Positions 420 through 20,485 of a DNA stretch of 35,743 bases are shown here, in pieces (position 1 is the stretch's first letter; each line of letters begins with the position of its first letter). Made by a program: the position numbers and the translations under genes. Where the stretch lies: contig CALLMA010000106.1 of assembly GCA_938008015.1 (NCBI GenBank), positions 1 to 35,743 on the forward strand, given 5' to 3'. The DNA is from an uncultured Celeribacter sp. (lineage in GTDB: Bacteria; Pseudomonadota; Alphaproteobacteria; Rhodobacterales; Rhodobacteraceae). The notes under the pieces are model-generated. The model was not told where the DNA came from, made no database searches, and saw only the letters and a list, made by a program, of their open reading frames with translations.

Positions 420-497
420 GAGTATTTTATTGTTTTTGAAGTAAAAGGAGAGCCAATAACAGGTTGGATGAAAGAATATATAGAGAGGCTTTGGGAA

Positions 498-1388
498 ATG
501 GCTGAAACTTTTAGGTGCATAGGTTTAGTATTCGCTCTGATATTGCTTGCGGGTTGCAACTCCTCAACGCGCGGCACAGATGCTTCTGGAGAAGTTGTCA
601 CGACGCCGCCTCCACACGAGCCTTTGATTTATCAAACATTAGAAAGTACCGAGAATGTGGATAGTCAGCTTTCTGGGTCATCGGTGCTTTTAAGCAATAA
701 TAGAATTGAGCAAAATATACTAACAGGTTCTATCGATCACGGCAGTGCACGGCATGAAATTGATGATGGTAGTTTTACATTAGTTGATGCTGACGGGTTT
801 GATAGCAGTGATACGCTTCGAGCGGGTGCTGCGACGCTTCAACGCAGTTCTAGCTTTGAAAATGAAACGTTTGAATATGTATTGCCGTTTACGTTTGATT
901 ATGAATTGAACGCAGGCTCACTTAGTAGCACAGGTGTTGTCGGCATTGTAACGCAGGTTGTTGACGTGCCGATGCTTGGCCTTGCTGAATATAATGGTGG
1001 CGCGGAAGGTTTCTTTTCAAATAGCTCAGGCGCGTACCGCCTTGTTGACGGCACCTCGGAAGTGCTGGTTGATTTTGGCGCAAAAGAAGTCGATATCAAT
1101 TTAACAGGATTTTCAGCCGTTAACCTTGTGACGCAACAATCAACATCTTCTCCGGTCAGTGATATAACGGTTCGTGAGGCCTCAATTTCCGGAAATTCTT
1201 TCACAGGAGGAGATGTGGTGTTTTTTCAAGGTAGCCAAGAGATTAATCATGGTGTAATTCAATCCGAAGGTGCTCAAGGCCATTTTTATGGCTATGACGT
1301 AGACCAATTTGTTCCTGATGAAGTTGGGGGCGTTGTTGTGAAAGATGGCGCATTAGCAAATGGATACGGCATCTTTATTGCGGATTAA
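498..1388 (+). CDS. Surface lipoprotein with TbpB-like C-terminal barrel (putative Slam substrate)
   Basis: I chose ATG 498, preceded by GAGAGG at 483-488, over the in-frame ATG 468. It gives a compact lipoprotein signal peptide ending in the lipobox LAGC with the acylated Cys at residue 20, followed by a Ser/Thr/Pro-rich linker. The last ~120 residues carry features of the transferrin-binding-protein-B beta-barrel domain: a region like 'VLVDFGAKEVDINLTGF', a 'SISGNSFTGG' strand, and a closing 'GHFYGYD...EVGGVV' segment like the GxFYGPxAxEVGG motif of that family. Such proteins are typically solute-binding lipoproteins displayed on the outer membrane. The next gene, 15 bases downstream, encodes a Slam-like translocon, which supports surface export. 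The ligand is unknown. Predicted length is 296 residues. Confidence 0.8.
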   Translation: MAETFRCIGLVFALILLAGCNSSTRGTDASGEVVTTPPPHEPLIYQTLESTENVDSQLSGSSVLLSNNRIEQNILTGSIDHGSARHEIDDGSFTLVDADGFDSSDTLRAGAATLQRSSSFENETFEYVLPFTFDYELNAGSLSSTGVVGIVTQVVDVPMLGLAEYNGGAEGFFSNSSGAYRLVDGTSEVLVDFGAKEVDINLTGFSAVNLVTQQSTSSPVSDITVREASISGNSFTGGDVVFFQGSQEINHGVIQSEGAQGHFYGYDVDQFVPDEVGGVVVKDGALANGYGIFIAD

Positions 1389-1403
1389 AAACATAGAGAT
1401 ATC

Positions 1404-2711
1404 ATGCTCAGGCTTATTGCGATTATTTTTACTTGTTCTGTATTGCCACTTGTGCAGGCAGCTTATGCTCAATCAAACAATGGCGCTCAGATCACCGATT
1501 TACTGAACCGTGGTCAACTTAAATCAGCTGCGGAGCTCTTAGAAAAAAGCAATCCAACGCAATCGGACATTATGTTTTTTAATGCGCGTGTGTTGAAAAT
1601 TCGCGGTCAGCACAGTGAAGCCATTGCTCTGTTTCGGCGTATTCTTCAAGAAAACCCGAATTACATAAACGCACGTCGTGAGTTGGCGCATACTTTGCTG
1701 TTAGATAAGCAATACGGGCCGTCAGAATTTCACTTCAAGGCGCTGCTGAAGGTTGATTCAAATTCTCAAATGAGAATGGGGTATCAAAACTTCTTGAATA
1801 CCATTCATCGAAGTCAACCAATTGGATTTAGTGGAAACTTTTCCTTGTTGCCTTCCACAAATATCAATCGTGGATCATCACACAAAAAAACAAATAGTGA
1901 ATTTTTGGGTAATGAAGACGGCGATATCGACGATGTCTCTCGTGCTAACTCAGGGATTGGGGCTCGGATTGGAGTTTCGGGATTCGCGCGCTATTTGACT
2001 GGGACAAGAAGTAGGGTGTCATTGGATTTTGGTGTTTCTGAGACGATCTATACAAATTCTCTGTATAATAGCACTTTTGGTTTTGCTGCAGTAGGATTTG
2101 ACCAAGTTACTTCATCTGGCAGGTGGGGCATCACTCCATATTTGAGATATACCCAGCGGAATGATCATCCTATTACAACTGAGATTGAAGGTGATAATCG
2201 CGCACTTGGTGCAAGTTTTTATCACACGAGCAGACTTGGCAATCGAAGCGATCTCACATTTCGAATGACACGCGAGCGACGCCACCATTTTACAAAAGAT
2301 TATTTAAATGGAGGTTACAGTTCGGCAGCGCTTAGTTTTGGGCGCAAAATATCGCCAAGCTTGCGGGTCGATAGCACATTGAAATTGGAATCTAGCACAC
2401 CTCAATCAGAACAATCCCAATATCAAGGGCAATCGTTGAAGTTTGCGCTCACGAAATCGTGGAAAGGTGGCCTAAGCACCAACGGTAGTTTAGAGGTCGG
2501 TCAGCGTGACTTCATTGGAGTTTTCTTAGGACGTCCTGAGCCGCGCGATGATAAGTATTTCACACTGGGGATTGGGGTTCAAAACTCCAGTATTTCCGTT
2601 CTGGGATTTGCCCCCAGGTTGCAATGTTCTCACACGCAAAATTATTCGAATGTTAATTTCTTTGATTATGAAGTTTCGGAATGTAATTTCTCAATAACGC
2701 GCAATTTTTAG
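1404..2711 (+). CDS. Slam-like outer-membrane protein (TPR + DUF560 beta barrel), type XI secretion
   Basis: The 435-residue protein begins with a Sec signal peptide (hydrophobic MLRLIAIIFTCSVLPLVQAAYAQ, cleavage after about residue 23). Residues ~30-130 form TPR-type helical repeats ('ARVLKIRGQHSEAIALFRRI', 'NPNYINARRELAHTLL'). Residues ~145-435 alternate polar and hydrophobic residues as in a beta barrel, starting with a 'LLPSTNINRGS' segment and ending 'FFDYEVSECNFSITRNF'. That ending matches the conserved DUF560/Slam C-terminus with a terminal aromatic. Slam proteins move lipoproteins across the outer membrane to the cell surface; the probable client is the lipoprotein just upstream. Two cysteines in the last strands could form a disulfide, which is odd for a barrel. 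Convergent with the LysR gene, 7 bases apart. Confidence 0.82.
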   Translation: MLRLIAIIFTCSVLPLVQAAYAQSNNGAQITDLLNRGQLKSAAELLEKSNPTQSDIMFFNARVLKIRGQHSEAIALFRRILQENPNYINARRELAHTLLLDKQYGPSEFHFKALLKVDSNSQMRMGYQNFLNTIHRSQPIGFSGNFSLLPSTNINRGSSHKKTNSEFLGNEDGDIDDVSRANSGIGARIGVSGFARYLTGTRSRVSLDFGVSETIYTNSLYNSTFGFAAVGFDQVTSSGRWGITPYLRYTQRNDHPITTEIEGDNRALGASFYHTSRLGNRSDLTFRMTRERRHHFTKDYLNGGYSSAALSFGRKISPSLRVDSTLKLESSTPQSEQSQYQGQSLKFALTKSWKGGLSTNGSLEVGQRDFIGVFLGRPEPRDDKYFTLGIGVQNSSISVLGFAPRLQCSHTQNYSNVNFFDYEVSECNFSITRNF

Positions 2712-2718
2712 CGCCGCC

Positions 2719-3957
2719 TCATGTGGCTTGGGTAAGTGCTTGAATAATGCGCTTAACATGTCGGTTTTCCGACATTTCCGATTTCCATATCAGATTGCTG
2801 GCTAAATGCGGGGCATTGGGGATCTCTATAAATGTGAATTCTTCGTGAGGCGAAGCCGATTCTTGAGGTAATATAGAGCAATATCCGCATCTGCTGACAA
2901 GATCTGCAAGCACGGTCATGGATTCCACCTCAATGGCTTTTTTTAAAGATACGGAATGCTTATGGAGCCATTCATCAATGATATTGCGTAGGCTGGATCG
3001 CATGCTCGGCAGCACGATCGGCATCTTTGATATTGTTTCTTGAAAGCTTAACGCGGGACTGGGGGCGCCGCCCGTGGCGAGCATTAAGGGGACGCTGGAT
3101 ATTTGCAAGCTATCAAAGCCGGTGGGAATGGTTGTGCTGTCGACGATTGCGCAATGCAATTCGTTGCGCTTGATGCTCGATAGTAGCCGATCGGTGAGAT
3201 CAGCCGAAATTTTAATGTTTTCATTAGGATAGTGTTCGCTCCAGTGTACACAGATATTCGCAACTCTTTTGCAAAGGGAGCTTCTTCTAGTAAAAGGAGC
3301 GACTGTGCCAAGGTGAGAGGTTGTGACATTTCTTCGAAATAAAAGATCGCCACGTTTGATCAGGCGTTCGCAGATGTCATTTAATTCAAGAGCGCTTTGA
3401 TACAGGATTTTGGCGGATGGTAAGGGTTTGAGGCCTTCGGAGGTGCGCTCGAAAAGCTGAGTGTCTAACAGTGTTTCGAGTTCATGCATCTGCCGTGATA
3501 ATTGCGGTTGTGAGATGCTGAGCGCTTGCGATGCGGCTCGAATGCTGTGAAATTCATAAACCACAATCGCACGCCTAATGAGTTGCGGTGATATTTTTAA
3601 GTCCCTGCAGTTCAATAAAAACTGTTCGAGGAGGGCGGGGTTTTCGAGGTAGTCGGCTGTTTCTTTATGCAAGAAATCCATATCAATCGGGGCGCCTTCG
3701 CTGGCAAAGGAACGTTCGATTTTATGTAAGCCAGCTAATAGATTTAAGGTGAACCTTGTAATGGATTGTGCGTTTTGATTGACGATGATGCCACGTCGAG
3801 AGCGAATGAAAAGCGAGGTGTTCAGCTGATTTTCCAAGCGTTTGATCGCATTGCTTACAGTCGCGACTGAGACGTTGTTTTGCGCCGCCGCCAAGGACAT
3901 GTTTTGGCTTTGCCAAGCACAGAGATAATAGATGAGAGATTTCGTATCTAACGACAT
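2719..3957 (-). CDS. LysR-type regulator with two tandem winged-helix domains
   Basis: At 412 residues this is about 100 longer than a usual LysR protein. Residues ~6-63 form a LysR-type helix-turn-helix ('SLAAAQNNVSVATVSNAIKR', then 'LFIRSRRGI'). Residues ~126-184 form a second one ('SIRAASQALSISQPQLSRQM', then 'LFERTSEGLKPL'). An effector-binding domain follows (~213-408). The gene is divergent from the ergothionase-like operon with a 100-base shared intergenic region, the classic arrangement for a LysR activator of the adjacent catabolic genes. The inducer is probably an intermediate such as thiourocanate or ergothioneine (inference). No clear Shine-Dalgarno precedes ATG 3957. Confidence 0.85.
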   Translation of the reverse strand: MSLDTKSLIYYLCAWQSQNMSLAAAQNNVSVATVSNAIKRLENQLNTSLFIRSRRGIIVNQNAQSITRFTLNLLAGLHKIERSFASEGAPIDMDFLHKETADYLENPALLEQFLLNCRDLKISPQLIRRAIVVYEFHSIRAASQALSISQPQLSRQMHELETLLDTQLFERTSEGLKPLPSAKILYQSALELNDICERLIKRGDLLFRRNVTTSHLGTVAPFTRRSSLCKRVANICVHWSEHYPNENIKISADLTDRLLSSIKRNELHCAIVDSTTIPTGFDSLQISSVPLMLATGGAPSPALSFQETISKMPIVLPSMRSSLRNIIDEWLHKHSVSLKKAIEVESMTVLADLVSRCGYCSILPQESASPHEEFTFIEIPNAPHLASNLIWKSEMSENRHVKRIIQALTQAT

Positions 3958-4057: not shown

Positions 4058-5593
4058 TTGAGTAACCTGCATCGTGAAGTAACTTTGGATGGTCGTTCGC
4101 TTACATTAAGTGAATTAGAGATGTTATCATTTTCGGGTCGTAAGATCCGAAGAGCGCCTGAAACCTATAATATCGTAAAATCTGCGCGTCGTACGGTTGA
4201 GCAAACATTGCTTTCTGGGTCTCCTGCATATGGTGTGACGACAAGCGTTGGGGCGTATAAAGATTGCGTTATTTCTGAAGAATCTGAGCTGGAATTTAAT
4301 AAAAGCCTTTTGCGGGCGCATAGTTTTGCGATTGGGGAACCGATTTCAGAAAATGTTGTAAGAGCTGCACTTGCGGTTCGTATCAACTCTGCCTTAACGG
4401 GGCATGCTGGCGTTCAACCAGAGTTGCTGGATGCAATTTTAGATATGTATCATGCTGGCATTGTCCCTGAGGTGCGCCCTATCGGTTCTTTGGGATGTGC
4501 AGATCTTGGCTTGATGGGGCAAATTGGCGCAACGTTGATCGGAGAAGGTTATTGCTTTTTTAATGGGCAACGCCGGACTGCGCAAAATGCCTTATCTGAA
4601 GCAGGGTTGCTGCCTTATATTCCAAAGTCAAAAGAAGGTCTCTCGCTTGTTAGCTCCAATGCGACATCGGTTGCGGCGGCTGTTGTCTTGCTGCGCAAGG
4701 CCTTCCGATTGTTTTATTTGTCGAATGCGGTTTTAGGCGTGAGTTTTGCCGGATTTACGGCCTCGAGAGATCCATGGCAAGCGGCTGCTCGTTTTAAAAA
4801 TGGCCTGACGCCCGATTTGGCGACATTTTGTTTGAACGCTTTCGAGGATGATCGTTGGGCGGCGCCGAAAGCTGTGCATGACCCATTGTCTTTTCGCTGT
4901 GCTATGCAGGTGCATGGAACAATGCTCGAAGCGCTGTGTGCTGCAGGGCAAATAGCAAGAGATACAATCAATTGCAGTGATGATAATCCGATTGTTCTGG
5001 ACGAGAAATTGATGACATCTGGATATTCTCTGCCACAAAGGCTGACGCTTGCCTTGGAGAGTTTGCAGCTCAATATTGCGCATTTGGCTAGAAGTTCGTT
5101 GAACCGTATTTTGGCTTTAGGCAAAAGAGAATTGACGGGTTTGTCTCGTAACTTAACGCCAAGTGATGGTGTGGTTTTAGCATTTGGGCCGCCAGTTAAA
5201 CAGGCTGTGGATTTATTTGCCTCAATTGCTGATCAAAGTTCGGCGGCCTCCATTATCAATGTGACCGTCGCCGATGGTATGGAAGATGAAGAAACATTTC
5301 TTCCGCTTGTGACGAGAAAACTTTCGATGCAATTAGATTATTGGGGCAAATTATTGGCGCATGAAGGGTTTGTGGCAAAGCAAGCTGTCTATTTGCGCGG
5401 TGAGGAGCAGTGCTTAAATGGCTTGGCGGGCGATGTCATTTCCAAGTTAAGTGAAGAACTTTCTCCGATTGATCGCGATCGCATATATTCATACGATTTC
5501 ATGGCTGCAGAAAGGCTGCTTGTTGATGATCAATGGATCGATCAATTAGCACAGAAATATCATTTTCCGGCTTGGGAAGAGGGGCGTAAATAA
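4058..5593 (+). CDS. MIO-less histidine ammonia-lyase homologue, probable ergothionase (ergothioneine trimethylamine-lyase)
   Basis: This 511-residue protein belongs to the aromatic amino acid lyase (HAL/PAL) family: 'YGVTTSVGAY' near residue 58, the segment around 'RCAMQVHG', and 'NCSDDNPIV' match family landmarks. In HAL the tripeptide Ala-Ser-Gly in 'GSVGASGDL' cyclises to the MIO cofactor. Here residues 143-150 read GSLGCADL: one residue is missing and no ASG is present, so MIO cannot form in the usual way. Ergothionase, which eliminates trimethylamine from ergothioneine to give thiourocanate, is a HAL relative that, as I recall, works without MIO. Four downstream genes supply the rest of that pathway. 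The start is TTG 4058 with GGTGAG at 4046-4051. Another betaine or histidine derivative as substrate is possible. Confidence 0.78.
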   Translation: MSNLHREVTLDGRSLTLSELEMLSFSGRKIRRAPETYNIVKSARRTVEQTLLSGSPAYGVTTSVGAYKDCVISEESELEFNKSLLRAHSFAIGEPISENVVRAALAVRINSALTGHAGVQPELLDAILDMYHAGIVPEVRPIGSLGCADLGLMGQIGATLIGEGYCFFNGQRRTAQNALSEAGLLPYIPKSKEGLSLVSSNATSVAAAVVLLRKAFRLFYLSNAVLGVSFAGFTASRDPWQAAARFKNGLTPDLATFCLNAFEDDRWAAPKAVHDPLSFRCAMQVHGTMLEALCAAGQIARDTINCSDDNPIVLDEKLMTSGYSLPQRLTLALESLQLNIAHLARSSLNRILALGKRELTGLSRNLTPSDGVVLAFGPPVKQAVDLFASIADQSSAASIINVTVADGMEDEETFLPLVTRKLSMQLDYWGKLLAHEGFVAKQAVYLRGEEQCLNGLAGDVISKLSEELSPIDRDRIYSYDFMAAERLLVDDQWIDQLAQKYHFPAWEEGRK

Positions 5594-6976
5594 ATGGAGA
5601 TGTCGATGACTAAAATATGCGACCTTGTTGTAAAAGGGACTGTCGTTCTTACAGATCAAATTATTGAAGATGGTTATGTTGCTATTGCAGATGGTGTTGT
5701 CATTGCCATTGGTTCGGGGGATGGGCCGGAAGCGCAAGTGGTTGAGGATTTTTCGCAAGATTACATCTTCCCTGGCGCTATTGATCCACAAGTTCACAGC
5801 CGTTCCCAAAAGGGACAAGAAGGTTTTATTTGGTCAACACGCTCAGCCGCAGCCGGCGGTGTGACGACGATTGTTGATATGCCTTATGATGACGGGCAAT
5901 TGATTTGCGATGCAGCTTCTGTCTTGTCGAAGGTTGATGAAGCTCACCGAGATGCGCGCGTTGATTTTGCTTTATATGGCACATGCCATCCCGAAGTTGG
6001 GCCGGTGAAGGTGGCTGAAATGGTGGCGGCGGGCGTTTGTTCGTTTAAATTTTCAACTTTTGGCACGCATCCCGAGCGTTTTCCACGTGTGCCTCCTCAA
6101 ACGCTTTATGCTTGTTTTAGTGAGGTCGCAAAGCATGGTTTGGCCGCAGGTGTTCATAATGAGAACCATGAAATGGTCATGGCGGAAATAGAGAAAACGG
6201 TTGCAAGCGGGATTACAGGTTACCGCGCGCATGGATTAAGTCGTCCTGAGATTACAGAAACACTGGCTATGGCTGAGATTTACGAGATTGGCGCTGCAAC
6301 AGGCTGCCCCGCGCATGTTGTGCATTGCTCAGTTGGGCGGGGGTATGAAATGTGTGCCGCTTATCAAAAACAAGGTTATAACAGCACAATTGAATGCTGT
6401 ATTCACTACCTAACTTTGAACGAAGAAGAGCATGTTTCAAAACTGGGCGGTAAGGCAAAAATCAATCCGCCTGTGCGCCCCAAAGCTGAAGTTGAAAAAC
6501 TATGGGCGCATTTGCAAGCTGGCAATATCACGATGGTTTCGACGGATCATGTCAGTTGGTCTGAAGATCGGAAAACTGATCCTGATATGTTTAAAAACGC
6601 GTCTGGTGTGCCGGGGTTGGAGGTTATGTATTCGCTGCTGCTCAATGGTTTGGCCGAACGAAATATTTCGTTTACTTGGGCAGCTCGTTTGCTGGCTGAA
6701 AATCCTGCGCAGCATTTCAGGCTGTCTCATCAAAAAGGAGGCCTCAAGATTGGCCGCGATGCTGATATTGTTGTCATGTCAAAAAGCGAAGAGAGCTATG
6801 ATGCGGGTAAGAGCGGGCATAATGTCGTGAGCTGGAGCCCTTATACAGGTATGACATTATCGTATCGTCCATGCGCAACATATTTGCGGGGGCAAAAAAT
6901 ATTTGATGGTCAGGACGTTTTAGCACAACCGGGCAATGGCACGTATGTCACACCGTTGCGGGAGGCACAGGTATGA
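5594..6976 (+). CDS. Hydantoinase / dihydropyrimidinase-like amidohydrolase
   Basis: A 460-residue cyclic amidohydrolase of the hydantoinase, dihydropyrimidinase and allantoinase group. The N-terminal metal motif, normally D-x-H-x-H, reads D-P-Q-V-H, with Gln66 in place of the first His and His68 kept. Other ligands look intact: Lys152 ('SFKFS', the carboxylated Lys), His188 ('GVHNEN'), His244 ('HVVHCS') and Asp318 ('STDHVSW'). The expected role is ring opening of hydantoin-5-propionate to N-carbamoyl-glutamate, the fourth step of ergothioneine breakdown. It starts immediately after the previous stop codon (GAAGAGGGG upstream; ATG 5594, 5600 and 5606 are all possible) and overlaps the next gene by ATGA, so translation is probably coupled. 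Confidence 0.82.
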   Translation: MEMSMTKICDLVVKGTVVLTDQIIEDGYVAIADGVVIAIGSGDGPEAQVVEDFSQDYIFPGAIDPQVHSRSQKGQEGFIWSTRSAAAGGVTTIVDMPYDDGQLICDAASVLSKVDEAHRDARVDFALYGTCHPEVGPVKVAEMVAAGVCSFKFSTFGTHPERFPRVPPQTLYACFSEVAKHGLAAGVHNENHEMVMAEIEKTVASGITGYRAHGLSRPEITETLAMAEIYEIGAATGCPAHVVHCSVGRGYEMCAAYQKQGYNSTIECCIHYLTLNEEEHVSKLGGKAKINPPVRPKAEVEKLWAHLQAGNITMVSTDHVSWSEDRKTDPDMFKNASGVPGLEVMYSLLLNGLAERNISFTWAARLLAENPAQHFRLSHQKGGLKIGRDADIVVMSKSEESYDAGKSGHNVVSWSPYTGMTLSYRPCATYLRGQKIFDGQDVLAQPGNGTYVTPLREAQV

Positions 6977-8250
6977 ATAATCCAGCCTCGAATATGGTCA
7001 TCAATCGTGATCGCCTCTGGAACGATCTTATGGATATGGCTGATATCACGGAAGAAGGGCGCCCTTATACGCGCCGGTCTTTTTCAGAAAAATTCATCGA
7101 AGGGCGGGCTCATCTCGATAAGATTTTTAAAGCAGCTGGATTGAAGACGCGCATTGATGAGAATGGCAATCTGATTGGACGTTTGGAAGGCCGTAGGCCT
7201 GAGTTGGGTGCTATCGCAATAGGGTCTCATTCAGATACTGTTCCTGATGGTGGGCGTTTTGATGGGGTCGCGGGTGTGATTTCCGGCCTTGAGGTGGCGC
7301 GCGCGCTGCAAAATTCGGGCATTGAATTGGCGCATTCGATTGAAATCATTGATTGTCTAGCTGAAGAAATGAGCGAATATGGTATTTCATGTGTTGGTTC
7401 GAGAGGCTTAGTCGGAGAATTAGAGCCTTCGATGCTGGAATATCGTGGTCCAAATGATGAGTTGTTAAGGAACGCAATTGATCGTGTGGGAGGGGCGTTT
7501 TGTGATATCACGCAACACCCTCGAACCGATATCGCAGCGTTTTTAGAAATGCATATTGAACAAGGCCGTGTGCTTGAAGATCAGGGCTTGGATATCGGGG
7601 TCGTGACAGATGTTGTCGGTATCACGCGTATTGAGATCGATGTCGTCGGGCAGCCTGATCATGCGGGGACGACCCCGATGCATATGCGCAGCGATGCGTT
7701 AAGTTTGGCGGCGATGTTATGCTTAGAGATTGAAGCACAAGCGCAGCGCCTCGCGGAGGCAGAGGGTGGATATTTTGTCGCAACAACAGGTGAGTTTAAT
7801 ATCGAGCCTAATGCCGCGAATGTTGTGCCTGGGCGCGTTCGAATGGTCATTGATGCGCGCACGGATAACGCCGACAAACGCGCCGTATTTATTGAAGCGA
7901 TAAAAGGCGCCTCCAAAGAATTTGCGACAATGTCGAAAGCGCATGTAGCAGAGATTAGGGTTCTCTCAGATGCCGCATCAACGAAGTTTGACAATCAGAT
8001 GATTGCGCATTTGCAGGCGGCCTCTGATGATCTTGGGTTGAAGTCGATTAAAATGCCAAGCGGCGCTGGGCATGATGCGGCCTTTTTCTCATATATTGCA
8101 CCAAGCGCAATGATCTTTGTGCCGTGCCGAGAAGGGCGAAGCCATTGCCCAGAAGAATATTCAACCTCCGATCAAATCGGAGCGGGCGCTGATGTTTTGT
8201 TGAATGCGGTTTGCGCAATAGATCAAGAATTAAGCTCAAAGAAAAATTAA
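6973..8250 (+). CDS. M20-family N-carbamoyl-L-amino acid hydrolase (probable N-carbamoyl-glutamate hydrolase)
   Basis: A 425-residue zinc-dependent hydrolase of the hydantoinase/carbamoylase branch of peptidase family M20 (the group that includes allantoate amidohydrolase and beta-ureidopropionase-type enzymes). The dinuclear metal site is visible as 'GSHSDTV', 'GGRFDGVAGV', the pair 'EE' in 'CLAEEMSEYG', 'EMHIEQG' and the C-terminal 'SHCPEEYS'. The dimerisation-domain motif 'GQPDHAGTTPM' is also present. It should remove the carbamoyl group as CO2 and ammonia, giving L-glutamate. ATG 6973 overlaps the upstream stop (ATGA). The substrate assignment rests on operon context. Confidence 0.87.
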   Translation: MNNPASNMVINRDRLWNDLMDMADITEEGRPYTRRSFSEKFIEGRAHLDKIFKAAGLKTRIDENGNLIGRLEGRRPELGAIAIGSHSDTVPDGGRFDGVAGVISGLEVARALQNSGIELAHSIEIIDCLAEEMSEYGISCVGSRGLVGELEPSMLEYRGPNDELLRNAIDRVGGAFCDITQHPRTDIAAFLEMHIEQGRVLEDQGLDIGVVTDVVGITRIEIDVVGQPDHAGTTPMHMRSDALSLAAMLCLEIEAQAQRLAEAEGGYFVATTGEFNIEPNAANVVPGRVRMVIDARTDNADKRAVFIEAIKGASKEFATMSKAHVAEIRVLSDAASTKFDNQMIAHLQAASDDLGLKSIKMPSGAGHDAAFFSYIAPSAMIFVPCREGRSHCPEEYSTSDQIGAGADVLLNAVCAIDQELSSKKN

Positions 8251-8297
8251 ACACCACATTCATATTTAAAGATGTTCACTAGAGAGGAATAGATGTC

Positions 8298-9383
8298 ATG
8301 GGACGCATACTAACAATTGAAGATGTTGAATTCGCGATCTTAGGAGGGTCTGTTTACGCTTGCGGTGGCGGAGGTTGGGCTGAGCATGGGCGCATGTTGG
8401 GGACAGCGGCAGTGAATGCGGGTCAGCCTGAACTCGTGACAATGGATGAAGTTGACGATGCGGCATGGATTGCGACAGCGGCAGCGATCGGCGCGCCAGC
8501 TGGGACGACAGAGTGGCAAATGCTCGGTGTGGATTACGTTAAGTCGGTTCAATTGTTGCAAGAGCGCTTAGGGGCGCCGGTTTATGGCTTGATGGTCGGT
8601 CAAAACGGAAAGTCGAGCACATTGAATGCATGGCTTCCTTCAGCGGTTTTAGGCACAAAAGTGATTGATGCTGTTGGCGATTTGCGCGCGCATCCGACGG
8701 GCGATATGGGCTCGATCGGGATGGCGAATTCACCTGAGGCCATGATTCAAACCGCAGTTGGCGGAAATCGCGCGAATAATTCTTATTTGGAGTTGGTTGT
8801 AGAAGGTGCGACGGCAAAGGTGTCTCCAATTTTGAGAACGGCATCTGATATGTCTGGCGGATTTATTGCCTCATGCCGAAACCCATTGCCAGCGAAATAT
8901 GTCCGCGAACATGCGGCTTTGGGGGGCATCTCAAAAGCGCTCTCTCTTGGAGAAGCGATTACCAATGCCAAGGCAAAAGGCGGGGCGGAAGTTATTGATG
9001 CGATCTGCGCTGAAACAGGCGGCACTATTTTAATCACAGGAAAAGTCGGGGCAAAAAATGTTGCTTATACAACAGAAGCTTTCGATATCGGAACAATCAC
9101 GATTGAAGGCAATGGCGGGCAAAGCACAGTCCATGTCATGAATGAATATATGGCCGTAGATAGCTCTGCTGAGGGGCGCATTGCCACATATCCTGATGTG
9201 ATCGCGGTATTAGATGCGCAAGGTCATCCTTTGAGCGTTCATGAGATATACGAAGGTATCGAGGTTTATGTTCTCCATGTCCCAAAATCAAAGATACCGC
9301 TGAGTTCGAGCGTTATAGATCCGGCTGTTTATCCTTCTGTTGAGGCAGCGATGGGGATTGAACTTGCGAAATATGTTCTTTGA
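8298..9383 (+). CDS. DUF917 family protein, probable thiohydantoin desulfurase
   Basis: A 361-residue DUF917-type protein: a glycine-rich N-terminus ('GGSVYACGGGGWAEHGR', residues ~15-31), 'AALGGISKALSLGEAI' in the middle and 'GGQSTVHVMNEYMAV' near the C-terminal domain. The family was long uncharacterised; I recall that Pfam now links it to thiohydantoin desulfurases of ergothioneine-type catabolism. Here it sits between the carbamoyl hydrolase and urocanase-like genes, where the reconstituted pathway needs an enzyme turning thiohydantoin-5-propionate into hydantoin-5-propionate with release of sulfide. AGAGAGGAA at 8281-8289 sets ATG 8298. Family assignment is good; function is inferred from context. 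Confidence 0.75.
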   Translation: MGRILTIEDVEFAILGGSVYACGGGGWAEHGRMLGTAAVNAGQPELVTMDEVDDAAWIATAAAIGAPAGTTEWQMLGVDYVKSVQLLQERLGAPVYGLMVGQNGKSSTLNAWLPSAVLGTKVIDAVGDLRAHPTGDMGSIGMANSPEAMIQTAVGGNRANNSYLELVVEGATAKVSPILRTASDMSGGFIASCRNPLPAKYVREHAALGGISKALSLGEAITNAKAKGGAEVIDAICAETGGTILITGKVGAKNVAYTTEAFDIGTITIEGNGGQSTVHVMNEYMAVDSSAEGRIATYPDVIAVLDAQGHPLSVHEIYEGIEVYVLHVPKSKIPLSSSVIDPAVYPSVEAAMGIELAKYVL

Positions 9384-9405
9384 GTGAATTGAGGAAGACG
9401 GTATT

Positions 9406-11049
9406 ATGACAAAAAAATTTGATGTGACTTCTGGGACTGAGCTTAGGTGTAAAGGCTGGCGCCAAGAGGCTCTTTTGCGCTTGCTCGAAAATGTATTGGC
9501 TGTGGGGGAGGATCCTGAAAACCTCGTTGTTTACGCAGCTCTTGGTAAAGCGGCGCGAGATTGGGCATCACATGATGGGATCGTTCATGCCCTTAAGACG
9601 ATGGAAGAAGATGAGAGCTTGATTGTTCAATCAGGTAAGCCCGTCGGAATCATGAAAACGCATAAAAACGCGCCCCTGTGTATTATGGCAAATTGCAATA
9701 TTATCGGGCAATGGGCGAAGGCCGAAAACTTTTATGAATGGGAAAAGGAAAATCTCATTTGTTGGGGCGGATTAACGGCTGGGGATTGGCAATATATTGG
9801 CTCGCAAGGTGTGATCCAAGGAACGTATGAAATCTTTAGTCGAATTGCTGAGCGTAATTTTAACGGTGATTTGCACGGCCGCTTCATTTTAACGGCAGGT
9901 CTAGGTGGCATGGGCGGTGCGCAGCCGCTTGCAGGTACCATGGCGAATGCGGCGATTTTGGCGATTGAGATTGATCCAGTACGCATTGCAAAGCGTATGG
10001 AAATCGGCTTTTTGCAACATCAGGCCGAAAGCTTAGATGAAGCCTTGGAGATGATCCAATCTGCAGTTGCGAAGAAAGAGGCAATTTCAGTGGGCTTATG
10101 TGCCAATGCGGCGGAGGTCTATCCTGAGATTTTACGCCGTGGCATTATTCCAGATATCGTGACAGATCAAACCTCGGCGCATGATCTTGTGTATGGTTAT
10201 GTGCCTCACACCCGCACCCTTGATGAAGCTCGCTCTTTGCGCGAAGATCATAAAGATATTTTGATGCACGAAAGCCGAGAGAGCATCGTAGAACATGTAA
10301 AAGCGATGGTGGCCTTCCAAAAGCAGGGTGCTGTTGTGTTTGATAATGGAAATTTGATCAGAACACATGCAAAAGAGGGCGGTGTTGAAGATGCCTTTGA
10401 TATTCCTGTATTTACAGAAGCCTTTTTGCGTCCGCTATTTTGCCGCGCGATCGGCCCATATCGCTGGATTGCACTCTCAAATGATCCAAATGATATTGCC
10501 GTCATAGATGAGTTCTTACTTGAGCGCTTCCCAGACAATAAGATTGTCACAAATTGGGTGAAACTCGCACGTGAGCATGTGCCTTTTGAAGGGTTGCCCG
10601 CGCGGATAGCATGGCTAGGCCATGGGGAGCGTACGGAATTGGCATTGGCTGTGAATGAGATGGTGAAAACTGGCAAGTTGAGTGGCCCAATTGCTTTTAC
10701 GCGTGATCATCTCGATGCCGGCGCGATGGCGCATCCGAACATCATGACAGAAAACCTTAAAGATGGATCCGATGCGATTGCTGATTGGCCTTTGCTCAAT
10801 GCGATGATTAGCTGTTCTTCAATGGCAGATCTCGTGGCAATCCATTCGGGCGGTGGTGGTTATGCAGGGTATATGACATCTGCTGGTATCACTGTCGTTG
10901 CAGATGGAACTGATGATGCGGCGCAAAGGATCCAGCATTCGATAACCAACGATACATCTCTGGGCGTTATGCGCTATGCAGATGCGGGATATGATGACGC
11001 GCAAGATGAGGCAAGAAGCAAAAAGATCGGCTGGATCGAAACGCAGTAG
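9406..11049 (+). CDS. Urocanase homologue lacking the catalytic Cys, probable thiourocanate hydratase
   Basis: A 547-residue protein co-linear with urocanate hydratase (HutU): 'VAVGEDPENLVVYAALGKAA', 'VQSGKPVGIMKTH', 'LTAGDWQYIGSQGVIQGTYE', the NAD-binding 'LTAGLGGMGGAQPLAGTMAN', 'VTDQTSAHD' and 'DGTDDAAQRI'. Urocanases carry an active-site Cys in 'GLPARICW'; here residue 402 is Ala ('GLPARIAWLGHG'). The 'HHGGG' motif reads 'HSGGGG'. Thiourocanate hydratases are known as a urocanase branch with altered active sites, and the operon supplies the other four enzymes. It should hydrate thiourocanate to thiohydantoin-5-propionate using tightly bound NAD. GAGGAAG upstream supports ATG 9406. Last gene of the five-gene operon. 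Confidence 0.82.
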   Translation: MTKKFDVTSGTELRCKGWRQEALLRLLENVLAVGEDPENLVVYAALGKAARDWASHDGIVHALKTMEEDESLIVQSGKPVGIMKTHKNAPLCIMANCNIIGQWAKAENFYEWEKENLICWGGLTAGDWQYIGSQGVIQGTYEIFSRIAERNFNGDLHGRFILTAGLGGMGGAQPLAGTMANAAILAIEIDPVRIAKRMEIGFLQHQAESLDEALEMIQSAVAKKEAISVGLCANAAEVYPEILRRGIIPDIVTDQTSAHDLVYGYVPHTRTLDEARSLREDHKDILMHESRESIVEHVKAMVAFQKQGAVVFDNGNLIRTHAKEGGVEDAFDIPVFTEAFLRPLFCRAIGPYRWIALSNDPNDIAVIDEFLLERFPDNKIVTNWVKLAREHVPFEGLPARIAWLGHGERTELALAVNEMVKTGKLSGPIAFTRDHLDAGAMAHPNIMTENLKDGSDAIADWPLLNAMISCSSMADLVAIHSGGGGYAGYMTSAGITVVADGTDDAAQRIQHSITNDTSLGVMRYADAGYDDAQDEARSKKIGWIETQ

Positions 11050-11329
11050 ATATATTTTTGCAACATTTTGTTTCTACTATTGGTTTGGGTTCGCATGATG
11101 CGGGCCCAATCTTTTTTATAGCTTCTATTTTGCGCGAAAGAATGCGGCACTCTTTCAAGGAAAAAAGCGGCCCCTATCTCATAAGGGGATCAGTCATTTT
11201 TAATGGTGAGTACTTAATTTTAATTGAAAATGTTGCGCCGTCGATACAAAACATTCGACAAGTGAAGACTTAACCTATAGTTTTTTAAAATGTTTGTATG
11301 ATTTTATAAGCTTGGGAGGGCGTCGAGTA
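11050..11329 (+). other. Intergenic region after the catabolic operon, with a weak hairpin
   Basis: This 280-base spacer has no convincing gene; the short frame at 11058-11273 has no ribosome binding site or recognisable product. A small inverted repeat (CCCCT 11171-11175, AGGGG 11184-11188) is followed a few bases later by a short T run (11197-11201). It may be a weak terminator of the five-gene operon. The region upstream of 11330 is AT-rich and probably holds a promoter for the binding-protein gene. Confidence 0.35.
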
Positions 11330-12937
11330 ATGAGTGTTTTGAGAAAAATGTTTCTGGGAATTGTAAGTTGCGCTGTAAGTCTCGTGCTCTTTCCCTATGC
11401 GGCGATCTCTGAAGAAAATGTCCTGAGGATTGGCAGTCACTCAAAGGCAGATAATTTAAATCCCGCAAGTGTTGTCGGGACGTGGAATTATGATGTTTTG
11501 GGAAATATTTTAGAAGGTCTTGTGACGAATGAGGCCGATGGTCAACCTGTCATGGGCCAAGCTCAGTCCTATACGCTTTCAGAAGATGGCCGCGTTTATA
11601 CCTTCACTCTCAGAGATGATGCTCTGTGGTCTGATGGCCAGCCTGTTGTGGCGACAGATTTTACACGAGCATGGCAGGCAGCCTTTAGTGTGGAAGGCGG
11701 TAATCCTGCAACGTATCTCATGGCGGGCATAAAAAATGCGCGCGAAGTTTTAGATGGTGAGATGCCAGTTGATGACTTGGGGATTAGGGCGCTCGATGCG
11801 AAGACAGTCGAGATCGAATTAACAGAGCCTCAATCCTATTTTCTTGCGATCTTGTCGCAAATGTCACTCGCGCCTGTGCCCTTCCACGTTATCGATGAAT
11901 TCGATCCGAATGAGGTTTGGACCTCGGGCAAAGATTTGGTCTTTAATGGACCATATCTGATGAACGGTACGACGAGTGATCAGCCCATCGTTCTCACAAA
12001 AAACCCGCACTACCATAGCGCGGATGAGGTATTCTTCGATCGAGTTGAAGTCGTTGGGACAGGTGGGGATGATGGCCAAGTTATAGGGCAATATTTAAGT
12101 GGTTATCTGGATATCCTTCGTCTCTATGCAAGCCGACAAATCTCTTTGGTTGCAAGCAAAGCGCCAGAAGCTTTGTTTGATGAGGGCGATGCCAGCATGG
12201 TCTATGGTGTTTTTAACCCTTCTGTGGAAAAGCTAAGTGACGTCAATATTCGCCATGCCCTCGCCATGACGGCTCACCAGCAGACACTCGCGAATGCAAC
12301 GACAGATAATGTTGTCGAAACAGAAAACTTCATCCCTCCCACTGTTATCGGATACCCTGAAAATGCGCCTGTCGCCTATTGGACTGGATGGTCCTTGCCT
12401 CAACGGCTTGCAGAGGCGCGCAAAATAATGGAAGGCGCAGGATATAGCGCTTCAAATAAATTGCCTGTCATATTGAAAACGACCACGCATGAATCATTGG
12501 TTGGAATGGGCAATGCATTGGCGCGCATTTGGTCTGAAATTCATGTCGATGTGACGGTGGAGAGCAACCCTGCCGGGCAGCATTTCAGCCCACAGCATCT
12601 GACAAGCGGAAACTTTGAAGTCGCTTTGGCGACTTGGGTTGCTGATTACAACGACATCCATAATTTTCTCAATCTTTTGGCAACAGATCGCTATTATAAT
12701 TATGGAAAATGGTCTAATGCAGAATATGATGAGTTAATAAGGCGTTATGAAAAAGAAACCGATCCAATGTTGCGGTCTGAACTGGTTAGAAGAATGTTCA
12801 CTCTGATTAATGAGTATTCACCAGTTTTTCCTGCAGTGGGCCGACTTACGAGTACTGTGGTAAACCCTGAGCTTGATGGCTACGAACAAAATGCGGTGAC
12901 TTTGCATCCCTTCCGATATATTCGTCGAGAGAACTAA
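11330..12937 (+). CDS. Family 5 (Opp/Dpp-type) solute-binding protein without adjacent permeases
   Basis: Start ATG 11330 follows GGGAGGG (11314-11320) at good spacing and gives a Sec signal peptide (basic 'MSVLRKM', then a hydrophobic core, cleavage near residues 27-29). The mature part matches periplasmic binding proteins of the peptide/nickel family: 'SDGQPVVATDFTRAWQAAFS', 'LTEPQSYFLAIL' and a C-terminal lobe containing 'SNAEYDELIRR'. These proteins capture peptides, opines or similar polar solutes. No permease or ATPase gene is adjacent. It lies between the ergothioneine-type catabolic operon and a membrane sensor kinase on the same strand, so it could feed a transporter encoded elsewhere or act as a ligand-presenting partner of the kinase. 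Ligand unknown; ergothioneine is a plausible guess. Confidence 0.83.
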   Translation: MSVLRKMFLGIVSCAVSLVLFPYAAISEENVLRIGSHSKADNLNPASVVGTWNYDVLGNILEGLVTNEADGQPVMGQAQSYTLSEDGRVYTFTLRDDALWSDGQPVVATDFTRAWQAAFSVEGGNPATYLMAGIKNAREVLDGEMPVDDLGIRALDAKTVEIELTEPQSYFLAILSQMSLAPVPFHVIDEFDPNEVWTSGKDLVFNGPYLMNGTTSDQPIVLTKNPHYHSADEVFFDRVEVVGTGGDDGQVIGQYLSGYLDILRLYASRQISLVASKAPEALFDEGDASMVYGVFNPSVEKLSDVNIRHALAMTAHQQTLANATTDNVVETENFIPPTVIGYPENAPVAYWTGWSLPQRLAEARKIMEGAGYSASNKLPVILKTTTHESLVGMGNALARIWSEIHVDVTVESNPAGQHFSPQHLTSGNFEVALATWVADYNDIHNFLNLLATDRYYNYGKWSNAEYDELIRRYEKETDPMLRSELVRRMFTLINEYSPVFPAVGRLTSTVVNPELDGYEQNAVTLHPFRYIRREN

Positions 12938-12953
12938 CAAAAGGCCAAGCAAG

Positions 12954-15182
12954 TTGGATAATGCATCTAATCGTGACATGAGAGTCTCGACAGTTTCCTA
13001 TACGCGAGACTGGGATCGCCTACGGCCATTGGTTTATAGGTTTATCTCATATATTGGGTGTTTATGTGTTTTGCTCAATGTGGTTTATTTTATCTATAAT
13101 GAAGATAAAATATCGAAAGAGGTAAATGTTATTTTCCAAGAGGTTAGCCGCATTTTGGCAAAGCCTCTTGTGCAATTTAATTACGAACAATCCACGACAA
13201 TCGGAGAGCTTATTTCCTCGCGCACAAATGTGAACGGCGTCAAAATCACCGATCAACTTGGCAGCGTTTTCTTTGAGCGAGATCTAAGAAAGACCTCGCG
13301 CTCTATTATGATCAGCGAAGATGTGCTCCATCATTCCCCAACCAGCGGCCTGGCTCTGGCAGGAGGGCTGGAAATCGATTTTGCGGTGCCTTCCTATTTC
13401 ACATATTTATCGGTTGGGCTGACCACTACTTTCCTAGCTGTCTTGTTGGTCTATTGGCCAACGACACTCTTTTTCCAGCATTATATACGCACATCCATGA
13501 TATCGCCGATCACGGCCTTAGAAAATGCGATTTCTCGAACGATTGATACCGATGAACATGTGACGACCAATTTGCGCAGTGACACAATCGTTGGTTCATT
13601 GGCTGAATATTTCGATAAGATGCAAAATCACCTGCGCGCCTCCCGACAACAGCAACACCTCATGCTAGAAAGTCGAAAAGAAACCTTAGAGCAGCTTCGC
13701 GATGCGAATGAAAATCTACAGCTCATTTCCGATGAGCAGCGCCAGCTCTCCATGATGTTGCAATCTACGATGGAGCTGACGGATCAGTCGGTCGCATTTT
13801 ATGACCGCCAGAAAGGAATGACGACATTTCTAGCGCCTTCCACGCCTGAGCCCATTGCAGAATTTTTATCGAATAAAGCGTTTTCCACGCAAGATGCGAT
13901 CGACTTTTTTACACCAATTTCAAACAGCGTCGAAAAAATTGGGCAAACGCAAGGCGCACTCAATTTGCAAGTGACATTTGATAATGATGTGAGCTGGCAG
14001 CTGCGTTCCATTATGAATGAAGGAAATATACAAGTCGTCATCGCCTCGAGTGTGTCTGATTTATATGTCGCTGAGCAAGAGAGGCTGCGTGGTAAAAAGC
14101 TAGAGGCCCTTGGGCGGCTTACAAGCGGAGTGGCTCATGATATTAATAACATTAATGCGATTATTCTGAATTTTGCAGAGACACTTCTTGATGCCGATTT
14201 AGAGGTCGGCAAAGTTCCTGAAACCGCGCAACAAATCATTCTATGTTGTGAGCGAGCGGGGAGTGTCGTTGAGCAGCTTTTGGTTATCGCACGAGAAAAG
14301 CCTGCGCTTAGAACAGTGCAGCCGGTAAAAGATTTGCTCTTATCGTTGAACTCTTTAGTGCCTGCCATTTTGGGGCCGCAAATCAAGTTTTCTGTCGAAT
14401 GCTATTCATCGGCGCTCATCAATGTAAATGTCGGTCTTTTCCACTCGGCAATCATCAACCTTTCCACGAATGCAAAAAATGCGATGCCCGATGGAGGTAC
14501 GCTAAAAATCATAGCCGAAGATACCGAATATAAAGGCACGCAGGGAGTTAAAATTTCCGTCATCGATGATGGCTGCGGCATTCCGGACAGTATTATCGAA
14601 AAACTATTCGATCCCTTTTTTACAACTCTTGGAGATAAGGGGGGCTCGGGGCTGGGGCTGGCGATGGTTTATAGTTTTGCGACGGAATCGGATGGTCAAA
14701 TAGATTGCGTGTCTGAAGTGGATAAAGGCGCAGAGTTTGTTTTAAAATTCCCATCGGCCTCAAATAAAGCTGTCGTTCCTCATTTCAAAAATAAAAGCGA
14801 AGCCCTCTCTAAGCCACAGAAGATGAAAACAGTCTTGGTTTGCGAAGATGAGCAGATGCTGCTGCGCCTTATTACTTTGGCGTTTGAAAAGACGAATTAC
14901 AATATTATTGGGTGTTCGAATTTATCCTCGGCGATGGAAGAGCTGAGCCAATATGAGGATAGTGATTTTATTAACATCTTAACAGATCACCAATTGCCTG
15001 ATGGCACAGGCGTGTCGCTGATTGAAGAAGCGAGTTCACGATTTAAAAGCGTTAAAGCGATCATGATCAGCGGTAACTATATAAAAACGCCGGATTTTGA
15101 CTCTAACGTAGATATGCGCTCTATCCCTAAGCCCTTTAGCATGGCCTCGCTGATATCCTTGGGAGATGACTTTTTCTACTAA
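12954..15182 (+). CDS. Membrane-bound hybrid histidine kinase
   Basis: About 742 residues. Two membrane helices (~28-48 and ~149-172) flank a ~100-residue periplasmic sensor region; a HAMP-like/coiled-coil stretch (~175-265) and a divergent sensor region (~270-370) follow. The kinase core has the H box 'SGVAHDINN' with His395, N box 'NLSTNAKNAMPDGG', G1 'DDGCGIPD', F box 'FDPFFTT' and G2 'GGSGLGLA'. A C-terminal receiver domain has 'VCEDEQ', phospho-acceptor Asp678 in 'LTDHQLPDG', 'MISG' and 'PKPF'. The start is TTG 12954 (AAAAGG upstream) or ATG 12978. No output regulator is adjacent. It lies 16 bases after the binding-protein gene, so the two are likely co-transcribed and functionally linked (inference). 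Confidence 0.87.
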   Translation: MDNASNRDMRVSTVSYTRDWDRLRPLVYRFISYIGCLCVLLNVVYFIYNEDKISKEVNVIFQEVSRILAKPLVQFNYEQSTTIGELISSRTNVNGVKITDQLGSVFFERDLRKTSRSIMISEDVLHHSPTSGLALAGGLEIDFAVPSYFTYLSVGLTTTFLAVLLVYWPTTLFFQHYIRTSMISPITALENAISRTIDTDEHVTTNLRSDTIVGSLAEYFDKMQNHLRASRQQQHLMLESRKETLEQLRDANENLQLISDEQRQLSMMLQSTMELTDQSVAFYDRQKGMTTFLAPSTPEPIAEFLSNKAFSTQDAIDFFTPISNSVEKIGQTQGALNLQVTFDNDVSWQLRSIMNEGNIQVVIASSVSDLYVAEQERLRGKKLEALGRLTSGVAHDINNINAIILNFAETLLDADLEVGKVPETAQQIILCCERAGSVVEQLLVIAREKPALRTVQPVKDLLLSLNSLVPAILGPQIKFSVECYSSALINVNVGLFHSAIINLSTNAKNAMPDGGTLKIIAEDTEYKGTQGVKISVIDDGCGIPDSIIEKLFDPFFTTLGDKGGSGLGLAMVYSFATESDGQIDCVSEVDKGAEFVLKFPSASNKAVVPHFKNKSEALSKPQKMKTVLVCEDEQMLLRLITLAFEKTNYNIIGCSNLSSAMEELSQYEDSDFINILTDHQLPDGTGVSLIEEASSRFKSVKAIMISGNYIKTPDFDSNVDMRSIPKPFSMASLISLGDDFFY

Positions 15183-15501: not shown

Positions 15502-16560
15502 TTATCGCACCCTCGCGCCATTCTCTAGAAATACACGCATCCTGTCTGTCGTAAAGCGCGCCGTCACAGTTGGTGCTTCGGCACTGCGTTTGCGTTGCTC
15601 TACCAACAATGGTTCAGCTCCCGCCCCATCAGCATGCACAAACCGCGTTCCTCCAAGCTCTTCGAGCATAATCACGGAGCGCGTTAACGTTTGCGCTTGC
15701 GGGCTTTCTTCATCCATATCTTCGGGTCGAATGCCAACAAATACTTTCTGGCCCTGAGTAAGTTTGGTTGATAATTCCGGCAAATCAATATCAGTTCCAC
15801 ATATCAACCGCGCACCGGAGCCCGTGACGACAGCCGGAATGAAATTCATCCGAGGAGAGCCAAGAAAGCCAGCGACGAACATATTGTCTGGGTCATCATA
15901 TAGCTCCAAAGGGGCACCGGTTTGCTCAATATGCCCATCACGTAATACGACAATTTTATCCGCGAGAGTCATGGCCTCAGTTTGATCGTGTGTCACATAA
16001 ATCATTGTGTTTGAAAGGCGCTTATGGAGCTGTGAAATCTCTGCACGCATCGTCACGCGCAGCTCCGCATCTAAATTGGAAAGCGGCTCATCAAACAAAA
16101 ACACTTTAGGATCACGCACAATCGCGCGGCCAATAGCAACGCGCTGACGTTGGCCGCCAGATAGATTGGCAGGCTTGCGATCAAGGAGTTCTTCAATCTG
16201 CAATATCGATGCGGCCTGTGCAATGCGTTGGTCAATTTCAGCCCGAGAGTGCCCTGTCATCCGCAGACCAAAAGCCATATTTTTGCGCACGTCCATATGG
16301 GGATATAAAGCGTAGGTTTGAAATACCATCGCGACGCCGCGTTCAGCGGGCTCCATCTCATTGACGACTTGACTGTCAATTGCAATTTCACCTCCTGAAA
16401 TTTCTTCAAGCCCTGCGATCATGCGCATCAATGTTGATTTTCCACAGCCCGATGGGCCGACGAAAACGCAAAACTCTCCTTGTTCTATTTCGAGGTTCAC
16501 CCCATGTAGGACTTCAAGATTACCATAAGATTTTCGAACATCTTTAAGCGTGACGAACAT
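15502..16560 (-). CDS. Sugar ABC transporter ATP-binding protein (MalK/UgpC type)
   Basis: A 352-residue carbohydrate-importer ATPase of the CUT1 class. Walker A is 'GPSGCGKST' (~35-43), the Q loop lies in 'MVFQTYALYPHMDVRKN', the signature is 'LSGGQRQRVAIGRA', Walker B is 'VFLFDEPLSNLDA' and the switch His is in 'YVTHDQTEAM'. The C-terminal third is the TOBE/regulatory extension typical of MalK-like subunits ('FVGIRPEDM'). It energises the two permeases encoded immediately upstream in transcription order, with a 3-base gap. Last gene of the seven-gene sugar operon. Confidence 0.93.
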   Translation of the reverse strand: MFVTLKDVRKSYGNLEVLHGVNLEIEQGEFCVFVGPSGCGKSTLMRMIAGLEEISGGEIAIDSQVVNEMEPAERGVAMVFQTYALYPHMDVRKNMAFGLRMTGHSRAEIDQRIAQAASILQIEELLDRKPANLSGGQRQRVAIGRAIVRDPKVFLFDEPLSNLDAELRVTMRAEISQLHKRLSNTMIYVTHDQTEAMTLADKIVVLRDGHIEQTGAPLELYDDPDNMFVAGFLGSPRMNFIPAVVTGSGARLICGTDIDLPELSTKLTQGQKVFVGIRPEDMDEESPQAQTLTRSVIMLEELGGTRFVHADGAGAEPLLVEQRKRSAEAPTVTARFTTDRMRVFLENGARVR

Positions 16561-16563
16561 GGC

Positions 16564-19164: not shown

Positions 19165-19203
19165 TGTGGTGCCCGCCCTCTAAATTAATAATATCAATAA
19201 ATG

Positions 19204-19227
19204 AGCGGCGCTAAATTATGCGCCGCC
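19204..19227 (-). terminator. Strong GC hairpin between binding-protein and downstream genes (attenuator or mRNA stabiliser)
   Basis: GCGGCGC (19205-19211) and GCGCCGC (19220-19226) form a perfect 7-bp, all-GC stem with the 8-base AT loop TAAATTAT. On the transcribed minus strand it begins about 9 bases after the binding-protein stop and is followed by an AT-rich stretch with scattered Ts. Such hairpins commonly lower downstream transcription or protect the upstream mRNA, so the binding protein is made in excess over the membrane subunits. Confidence 0.6.
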
Positions 19228-19235
19228 TAAAAATT

Positions 19236-20465: not shown

Positions 20466-20485
20466 GCGGTTTCTCCCTTTTGTGT

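Follow-up and report, generated by a model that had tools for sequence, protein, structure and literature searches.

A candidate ergothioneine-degradation operon beside a divergent LysR gene with two helix-turn-helix domains in an uncultured Celeribacter sp.

The DNA analysed here, referred to as the window, is a stretch of 35,743 nucleotides from an uncultured Celeribacter sp. (contig CALLMA010000106.1, our C106, of the assembly GCA_938008015.1, which holds 2.01 Mb in 137 contigs and is 85.7% complete), and its main feature is a row of five genes that would together form an operon for the catabolism of the antioxidant ergothioneine. An earlier note, made from the sequence alone, had placed five such genes at 4058-11049, and all five open reading frames (ORFs) are indeed present there, on the + strand (Table 1). 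In operon order they carry the Pfam domains Lyase_aromatic, Amidohydro_1, Peptidase_M20, S-Me-THD (DUF917) and Urocanase. The ErtD gene begins at the base right after the lyase stop codon, the ErtE gene overlaps the ErtD gene by 4 bases, and gaps of 47 and 22 bases precede the desulfurase and hydratase genes, respectively. Purine-rich AAGGGTGGTGAG stands immediately 5' of the TTG start of the lyase gene, and a terminator-like hairpin follows the last gene; hairpin-type sites are not in excess across the scanned region, where 8 were found versus 11.4 expected from shuffled DNA.

Table 1. Positions in the window of the candidate ergothioneine operon and the features that flank it.
Feature	Position	Strand	Details
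Lyase (candidate ergothionase)	4058..5593	+	511 aa, TTG start
ErtD (predicted)	5594..6976	+	460 aa; NF058538
ErtE (predicted)	6973..8250	+	425 aa; NF058540
Thiohydantoin desulfurase (predicted)	8298..9383	+	361 aa; NF058529
Thiourocanate hydratase (predicted)	9406..11049	+	547 aa; NF058530
LysR with two helix-turn-helix domains (candidate regulator)	2719..3957	-	Pfam HTH_1 x2 + LysR_substrate
Terminator-like hairpin, 3' of operon	11085..11109	+	11 pairs, then TCTTTTTTAT

Proteins were compared with Pfam and with the NCBIfam 20.0 models (June 2026), which have curated equivalog cut-offs. The four genes after the lyase gene all exceed the cut-offs of the pathway models listed in Table 1, with 764.6 bits for ErtD (cut-off 600), 563.8 for ErtE (520), 597.1 for the desulfurase (440) and 1034.3 for the hydratase (930). 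The assignments supported at this level are ErtD as a predicted hydantoin-5-propionate amidohydrolase, ErtE as a predicted N-carbamoyl-L-glutamate amidohydrolase of the M20 family, the DUF917 protein as a predicted thiohydantoin desulfurase that would remove sulfur as sulfide, and the last gene product as a predicted thiourocanate hydratase, a paralogue of HutU. ErtD and ErtE had been described in the earlier note as two uracil-type metal hydrolases, where the term "hydrolases" stands but "uracil-type" is imprecise: with the Ert models set aside, ErtD comes closest to an allantoinase model, whose cut-off its 284.7 bits do not reach, and ErtE to a "Zn-dependent hydrolase" model, which it exceeds (536.5 versus 486). 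The same profiles bear on a route with the same chemistry but an S-methylated substrate, S-methyl-ergothioneine, from which methanethiol would be released. Its enzymes are homologous, and the S-methyl models of NCBIfam do match the hydratase and the desulfurase, but both matches stay below cut-off (756.3 versus 880 for NF058531, 277.7 versus 450 for NF058532) while the plain-thio models pass, and on these cut-offs we rejected the S-methyl route, which we consider extremely improbable.

The hydratase finds its best match in the PDB in entry 7ned (820 bits, versus 620 for urocanase 1x87), which carries the label "Urocanate hydratase" and which we take to be the Paenibacillus enzyme of Beliaeva, Leisinger and Seebeck 2021. 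Its residue A402 occupies a column that holds Cys in 24 of 26 reference urocanases (Met in the other two), presumably the active-site cysteine, and the 95 cluster rows, counting the window and 7ned, have A (88), G (6) or S (1) there and never Cys. A tree of 44 of the 121 hydratase rows separates the cluster rows and 7ned from the urocanases by a 98% branch, save two rows of genome G141 on the urocanase side. The cluster of this Rhodobacterales genome (L057) has two hydratase paralogues (52% to the window), an ErtD that is 63% identical and a desulfurase that misses the thio cut-off (275.6 bits), and it possibly serves an S-methyl-type route.

The lyase matches PF00221 with 291 bits (cut-off 27.3), and the best reading of its sequence is that of an ergothionase (ergothioneine trimethylamine-lyase) free of 4-methylideneimidazole-5-one (MIO). 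Its MIO triad is absent, with GSLG-CA-DLG where HutH has GSVGASGDL, which, together with A402 of the hydratase, bears out the statement of the earlier note that the two Hut-like proteins lack the key cofactor or residue. The lyase keeps Y58, K68, K381 and E409, residues retained in MIO-free lyases; in Treponema denticola ergothionase, four residues are reportedly essential. We aligned 128 lyases, i.e. 126 of 145 segments kept for at least 330 aligned residues, the window lyase and the T. denticola enzyme, and applied labels of our own read off the motif at the MIO site: CAD (46 rows, including the window and one "AAD"), EAD-like (33 rows, including T. denticola) and MIO (44 rows), with 5 rows outside these classes (4 "other", 1 "ESD"). 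The four columns are identical in 79 of 79 CAD and EAD rows; Y58 and E409 are not discriminating because most MIO rows have both (42 and 41, respectively), while K68 occurs in 2 MIO rows and K381 in none. Altogether 13 columns split the MIO-free rows from the MIO lyases, and the window lyase and T. denticola agree at the MIO-free state of all 13. The best sequence match in the PDB is likewise T. denticola ergothionase (6s7j, 206 bits, versus 161 for HutH 7tqr). A predicted structure, built from 17 sequences (predicted local distance difference test 90.3, predicted template modelling score 0.91), points the same way in Foldseek, where 6s7j takes ranks 1-3 (best E 9.7e-33, template modelling (TM) score 0.90/0.93) and the first HutH rank 4 (E 3.6e-29, TM score 0.87/0.88).

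A midpoint-rooted tree of 74 of the 128 lyases, from which rows more than 80% identical or shorter than 380 residues had been dropped, contains a CAD clade (18 rows, 100%) and an EAD clade (20 rows, 99%), each forming one side of a branch, and the window lyase groups with those of Thioclava (G673) and Cohaesibacter (G663). Relatives of the cluster come from a scan of named genomes, in which the 80 best among 483 confirmed stretches were retained; lyase counts refer to the fetched DNA. An MIO-free lyase is present in 60 of these 80 relatives, 34 of them CAD and 26 EAD, and an MIO-type lyase alone in one. The CAD loci are alphaproteobacterial throughout (34/34), and the EAD loci comprise beta- and gammaproteobacterial ones, four of Pseudochrobactrum, and L101; the plasmid cluster of Paracoccus denitrificans (L063) has an EAD lyase too. 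L101 is also the only one of the 80 not named as Proteobacteria: its record is titled Bacillus subtilis SK6B4, its cluster layout is like that of Pseudochrobactrum, and it is probably contamination or a mislabelled assembly. Median identities to the window for CAD versus EAD loci are 70 versus 67% for the desulfurase, 73 versus 75% for the hydratase, 63 versus 44% for ErtD and 50 versus 44% for ErtE, and in most EAD loci ErtD and ErtE are more distant and often on the opposite strand. What is new here is that the lyase belongs to a second MIO-free clade, separate from that of T. denticola and Burkholderia, and that its gene precedes those of the same conserved hydratase and desulfurase, and the sharing of these two enzymes by two distant lyase clades argues for the same reaction.

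The distance between the clades could also reflect a different main substrate, namely a relative of ergothioneine such as ergothioneine sulfonate or selenoneine. The CAD clade does lie well apart from the clade of the T. denticola enzyme, and CAD lyases occur at two loci (L100 and L128) of Rhizobium rhizogenes, to which Agrobacterium radiobacter K84 presumably belongs. Yan 2022 reportedly described a bacterial pathway for ergothioneine sulfonate, and PMC13405746 cites that work for A. radiobacter. Nevertheless, the hydratase and desulfurase of the window pass the thiourocanate and thiohydantoin models, and closely similar hydratases and desulfurases are common to CAD and EAD clusters, which leaves a substrate of this kind very improbable in our judgement.

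If the genes were instead a histidine utilisation (hut) operon, the lyase would be HutH, the hydratase HutU and the hydrolases steps like those of HutI and HutF. The PF00221 and urocanase domains would suit this, and the hydratase exceeds the HutU model TIGR01228 (714 bits versus 375); since it passes the thiourocanate hydratase model as well, TIGR01228 alone cannot separate the two enzymes. However, the lyase reaches just 225.7 bits against the HutH model TIGR01225 (cut-off 539.15) and has lost the MIO triad, the hydratase has Ala at the urocanase Cys column, and the true HutH and HutU of the order sit in separate clades, so that the phylogenies, which the earlier note had named as a possible refutation of its reading, do not place either protein with them. 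The same note had reported no HutI, and this is true of the ORFs read in the window and, for proteins above cut-off, of the 85.7%-complete genome, where the HutI search gave a single protein hit, which its best NCBIfam model, itself below cut-off, makes a TRZ/ATZ-type amidohydrolase. Further HutH-like or HutU-like genes were not found in this genome. On the cut-offs, the triad, the Cys column, the trees and the HutI search we rejected histidine utilisation, for which we see next to no likelihood.

Besides the TIGR01228 score, several results weigh against an ergothioneine operon. TM scores of 0.90 against 0.87-0.88 mean that the fold is common to ergothionase and HutH and that the margin is modest; over the fold alignment, the lyase shares just 29-30% identity with the T. 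denticola enzyme, from which a long branch separates it, and the CAD and EAD clades fall on one side of the midpoint root with a joint branch of only 79% in the Shimodaira-Hasegawa-like approximate likelihood ratio test. The lyase exceeds no NCBIfam model, the best being HutH models far below cut-off, and the same is true of the Thioclava lyase and of a Burkholderia arboris cluster lyase. Furthermore, 19 of the 80 relatives have no lyase that passes the length filter in the fetched DNA, and a trimethylamine monooxygenase of the flavin-containing (FMO) type gave no hit in this genome, a weak absence at 85.7% completeness. On a separate point, ergothioneine biosynthesis, an EgtD-type methyltransferase gave no hit either, which is equally weak.

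With these points counted, and from the computed gene content, families, clades and residues, we give a probability of about 0.92 to the five genes being an ergothioneine-catabolic operon of the known five-step kind, as the earlier note had proposed; each of its enzyme assignments survives the sequence-level tests. The reaction steps given here are those expected from the families identified and from the published pathway. The MIO-free lyase would convert ergothioneine to thiourocanate and trimethylamine, the HutU-like hydratase would turn thiourocanate into thiohydantoin, and the DUF917 enzyme would replace the sulfur of the thiohydantoin and release sulfide; ErtD would then open the hydantoin to N-carbamoyl-glutamate, which ErtE would hydrolyse to glutamate, ammonia and carbon dioxide. 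Counting this genome each time, a desulfurase above the model cut-off occurs in 2 of 292 genomes from the order and in 6 of 398 from the phylum, so a complete route from ergothioneine to glutamate would be placed in an order where, by this measure, it is uncommon.

The lyase-less relatives deserve separate mention. Ten of the 19 loci are shorter than 19.4 kb, and one (L091) has a lyase fragment that was dropped by the length filter. We searched for a lyase elsewhere in 14 genomes, 12 of them without one in the fetched locus and two (those of L066 and L101) serving as positives. In five of the 12, an MIO-free lyase turned up elsewhere (G241, G667, G671, G672 and G663); that of G663 lies on a contig equal in length to the one with the cluster, and thus probably on the same contig. 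Only other lyases were found in G566, G664 (Terasakiella), G665 (Acinetobacter), G668 and G670 (Pandoraea); G666 has one MIO-type lyase and three ungraded fragments, and no lyase in G669 has both K columns. For most of the genomes searched, completeness is not given. Such genomes may use thiourocanate made by others, and downstream enzymes without a detected MIO-free lyase would fit thiourocanate cross-feeding, which has been reported among gut bacteria (PMC13405746). In Thalassospira marina, a cluster (L047) whose fetched DNA shows no lyase has a UbiD-family decarboxylase and a tripartite ATP-independent periplasmic (TRAP) transporter behind it, perhaps another entry route.

The LysR gene is divergent from the operon and 100 bp from it. 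Its product has two HTH_1 domains (helix-turn-helix, HTH; approximately residues 16-63 and 137-178) and one LysR substrate domain, and from its position we infer that it probably controls the operon. A divergent LysR with two HTH domains, which has relatives next to a minority of these clusters, is a new observation: the same layout occurs in 8 of the 80 loci, all of them among the 49 alphaproteobacterial ones and with no more than about 0.32 kb between the LysR and a gene of the cluster, and in 9 of the other 19 loci read (L047-L065), where the distance stays within 0.3 kb except in L055 (3.2 kb). Another such LysR, 40% identical to that of the window, adjoins the separate Cohaesibacter lyase (L217). 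In 10 of the 80 loci a second layout is found, in which about 300 residues separate the two HTH domains and the substrate domain comes last, and Pfam gives one substrate domain in both proteins tested; these LysR-like ORFs (L067, L068, L072, L073, L084, L101, L110, L112, L119 and L139) lie near lyase-less or EAD-type clusters, and most are of about 570-675 aa with HTH domains 290-340 residues apart. Most loci have neither layout. This genome itself has a second dual-HTH LysR on contig C12 (L232:9033-10244, + strand), which is only 22% identical to that of the window and has its best relative in the set (40% identity) beside the Paracoccus denitrificans cluster L063. A search of 40 other genomes of the order for relatives of the window LysR (1e-12) gave no full-length match and one partial one; since it missed the C12 protein of this very genome, it does not show rarity. 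A weak literature search listed no paper on the dual-HTH architecture by title or start of abstract. The dual-HTH LysR is a likely ergothioneine sensor.

The C12 LysR gene is divergent from genes for an OsmF-type ATP-binding cassette (ABC) importer, and such importers recur near the cluster. In Thioclava the operon is followed by an OsmF-type substrate-binding protein gene (NF049931, 491 bits, cut-off 400), two permease genes and an ATPase gene, and counterparts of all four accompany the cluster, inside it or alongside, in 11 of the 80 loci, one of which is Thioclava. EAD lyases are present at two of these loci (L075 and L080), with the binding protein at 49-51% identity and about 8 kb from the lyase, and counterparts also lie beside the separate lyases of Cohaesibacter and G241. 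The binding protein on C12 is 67-69% identical to that of Thioclava and reaches 481 bits against NF049931, a model that names a glycine betaine binding protein. EgtU, an ergothioneine importer that has been characterised, likewise belongs to the quaternary-amine transporters (PMC9732360). The occurrence of an OsmF-type importer in or beside the cluster in some relatives, with a counterpart here on a different contig where it adjoins the second dual-HTH LysR, is also new, and uptake of ergothioneine by the C12 importer is probable. We further propose, tentatively and at slightly less than even odds, that the dual-HTH LysR family marks a dispersed ergothioneine regulon in alphaproteobacteria, with one member here by the operon and one by the importer on C12, and that this regulon uses the second, deeply separate MIO-free trimethylamine lyase clade, which is interchanged with the characterised clade ahead of the same conserved hydratase and desulfurase genes.

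Three other regions of the window were also noted. Downstream, at 11294-15182 (+), lie a gene for a family 5 (OppA-like) solute-binding protein and, 16 bp on, one for a hybrid histidine kinase with a receiver domain; no permease ORF for that transporter was seen alongside, and the two are perhaps a sensory pair of binding protein and kinase. The SBP_bac_5 and kinase genes were considered as operon members and rejected, because the terminator-like hairpin intervenes and no ORF in 99 loci matches them above 60 bits. Upstream, at 468-2711 (+), a protein with a TbpB-type barrel, weakly like Slam-dependent lipoproteins, precedes a Slam (SlipAM) outer-membrane protein; in this alphaproteobacterium the two perhaps export surface lipoproteins as a pair. 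At 15502-22782 (-) are an ABC transporter, a family 4 glycosidase, an amidohydrolase and a PfkB-like kinase; glycosidase, amidohydrolase and one permease have a basis in Pfam, while a sugar substrate and the kinase are a reading of the sequence.

The pathway itself is published and modelled in NCBIfam, and the operon is a further example of a known system. The earlier note had expected automatic annotation to miss it, which no longer holds for the four genes named by NCBIfam 20.0 but does for the lyase and for older records, e.g. deposited plasmid records with the vague names "urocanate hydratase", "DUF917 family protein" and "amidohydrolase family protein"; with four of five genes over pathway cut-offs, present-day annotation names the pathway except for its first step. 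In a literature search on thiourocanate hydratase, thiohydantoin desulfurase, ErtD and ErtE, only unrelated papers were among the matches listed. The locus points to three parts, the lyase clade that NCBIfam leaves unnamed, the dual-HTH LysR and the betaine-type importer, and we know of no assay for any of them. A close counterpart, Thioclava indica DT23-4 (L066), has the same five genes in the same order (73, 79, 66, 81 and 89% identity), with its contig ending upstream where the LysR would lie; it differs in having the OsmF-type betaine ABC importer directly after its operon instead of on another contig. T. denticola ergothionase, reportedly described by Maurer 2019 (PDB 6s7j, 6s7q), shares with the window lyase the lack of the MIO triad and the Y, K, K and E columns and is its best fold match, but has "EGD" where the window has "CAD" at the lost MIO site and belongs to a separate clade. 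Finally, the five-step ergothioneine catabolism reportedly set out by Beliaeva, Leisinger and Seebeck 2021 (ACS Chem Biol 16:397) involves the same five enzyme types, all of them in one operon here. In the window the genes stand in the order lyase-ErtD-ErtE-desulfurase-hydratase, with a lyase of a clade separate from that of T. denticola and a dual-HTH LysR.

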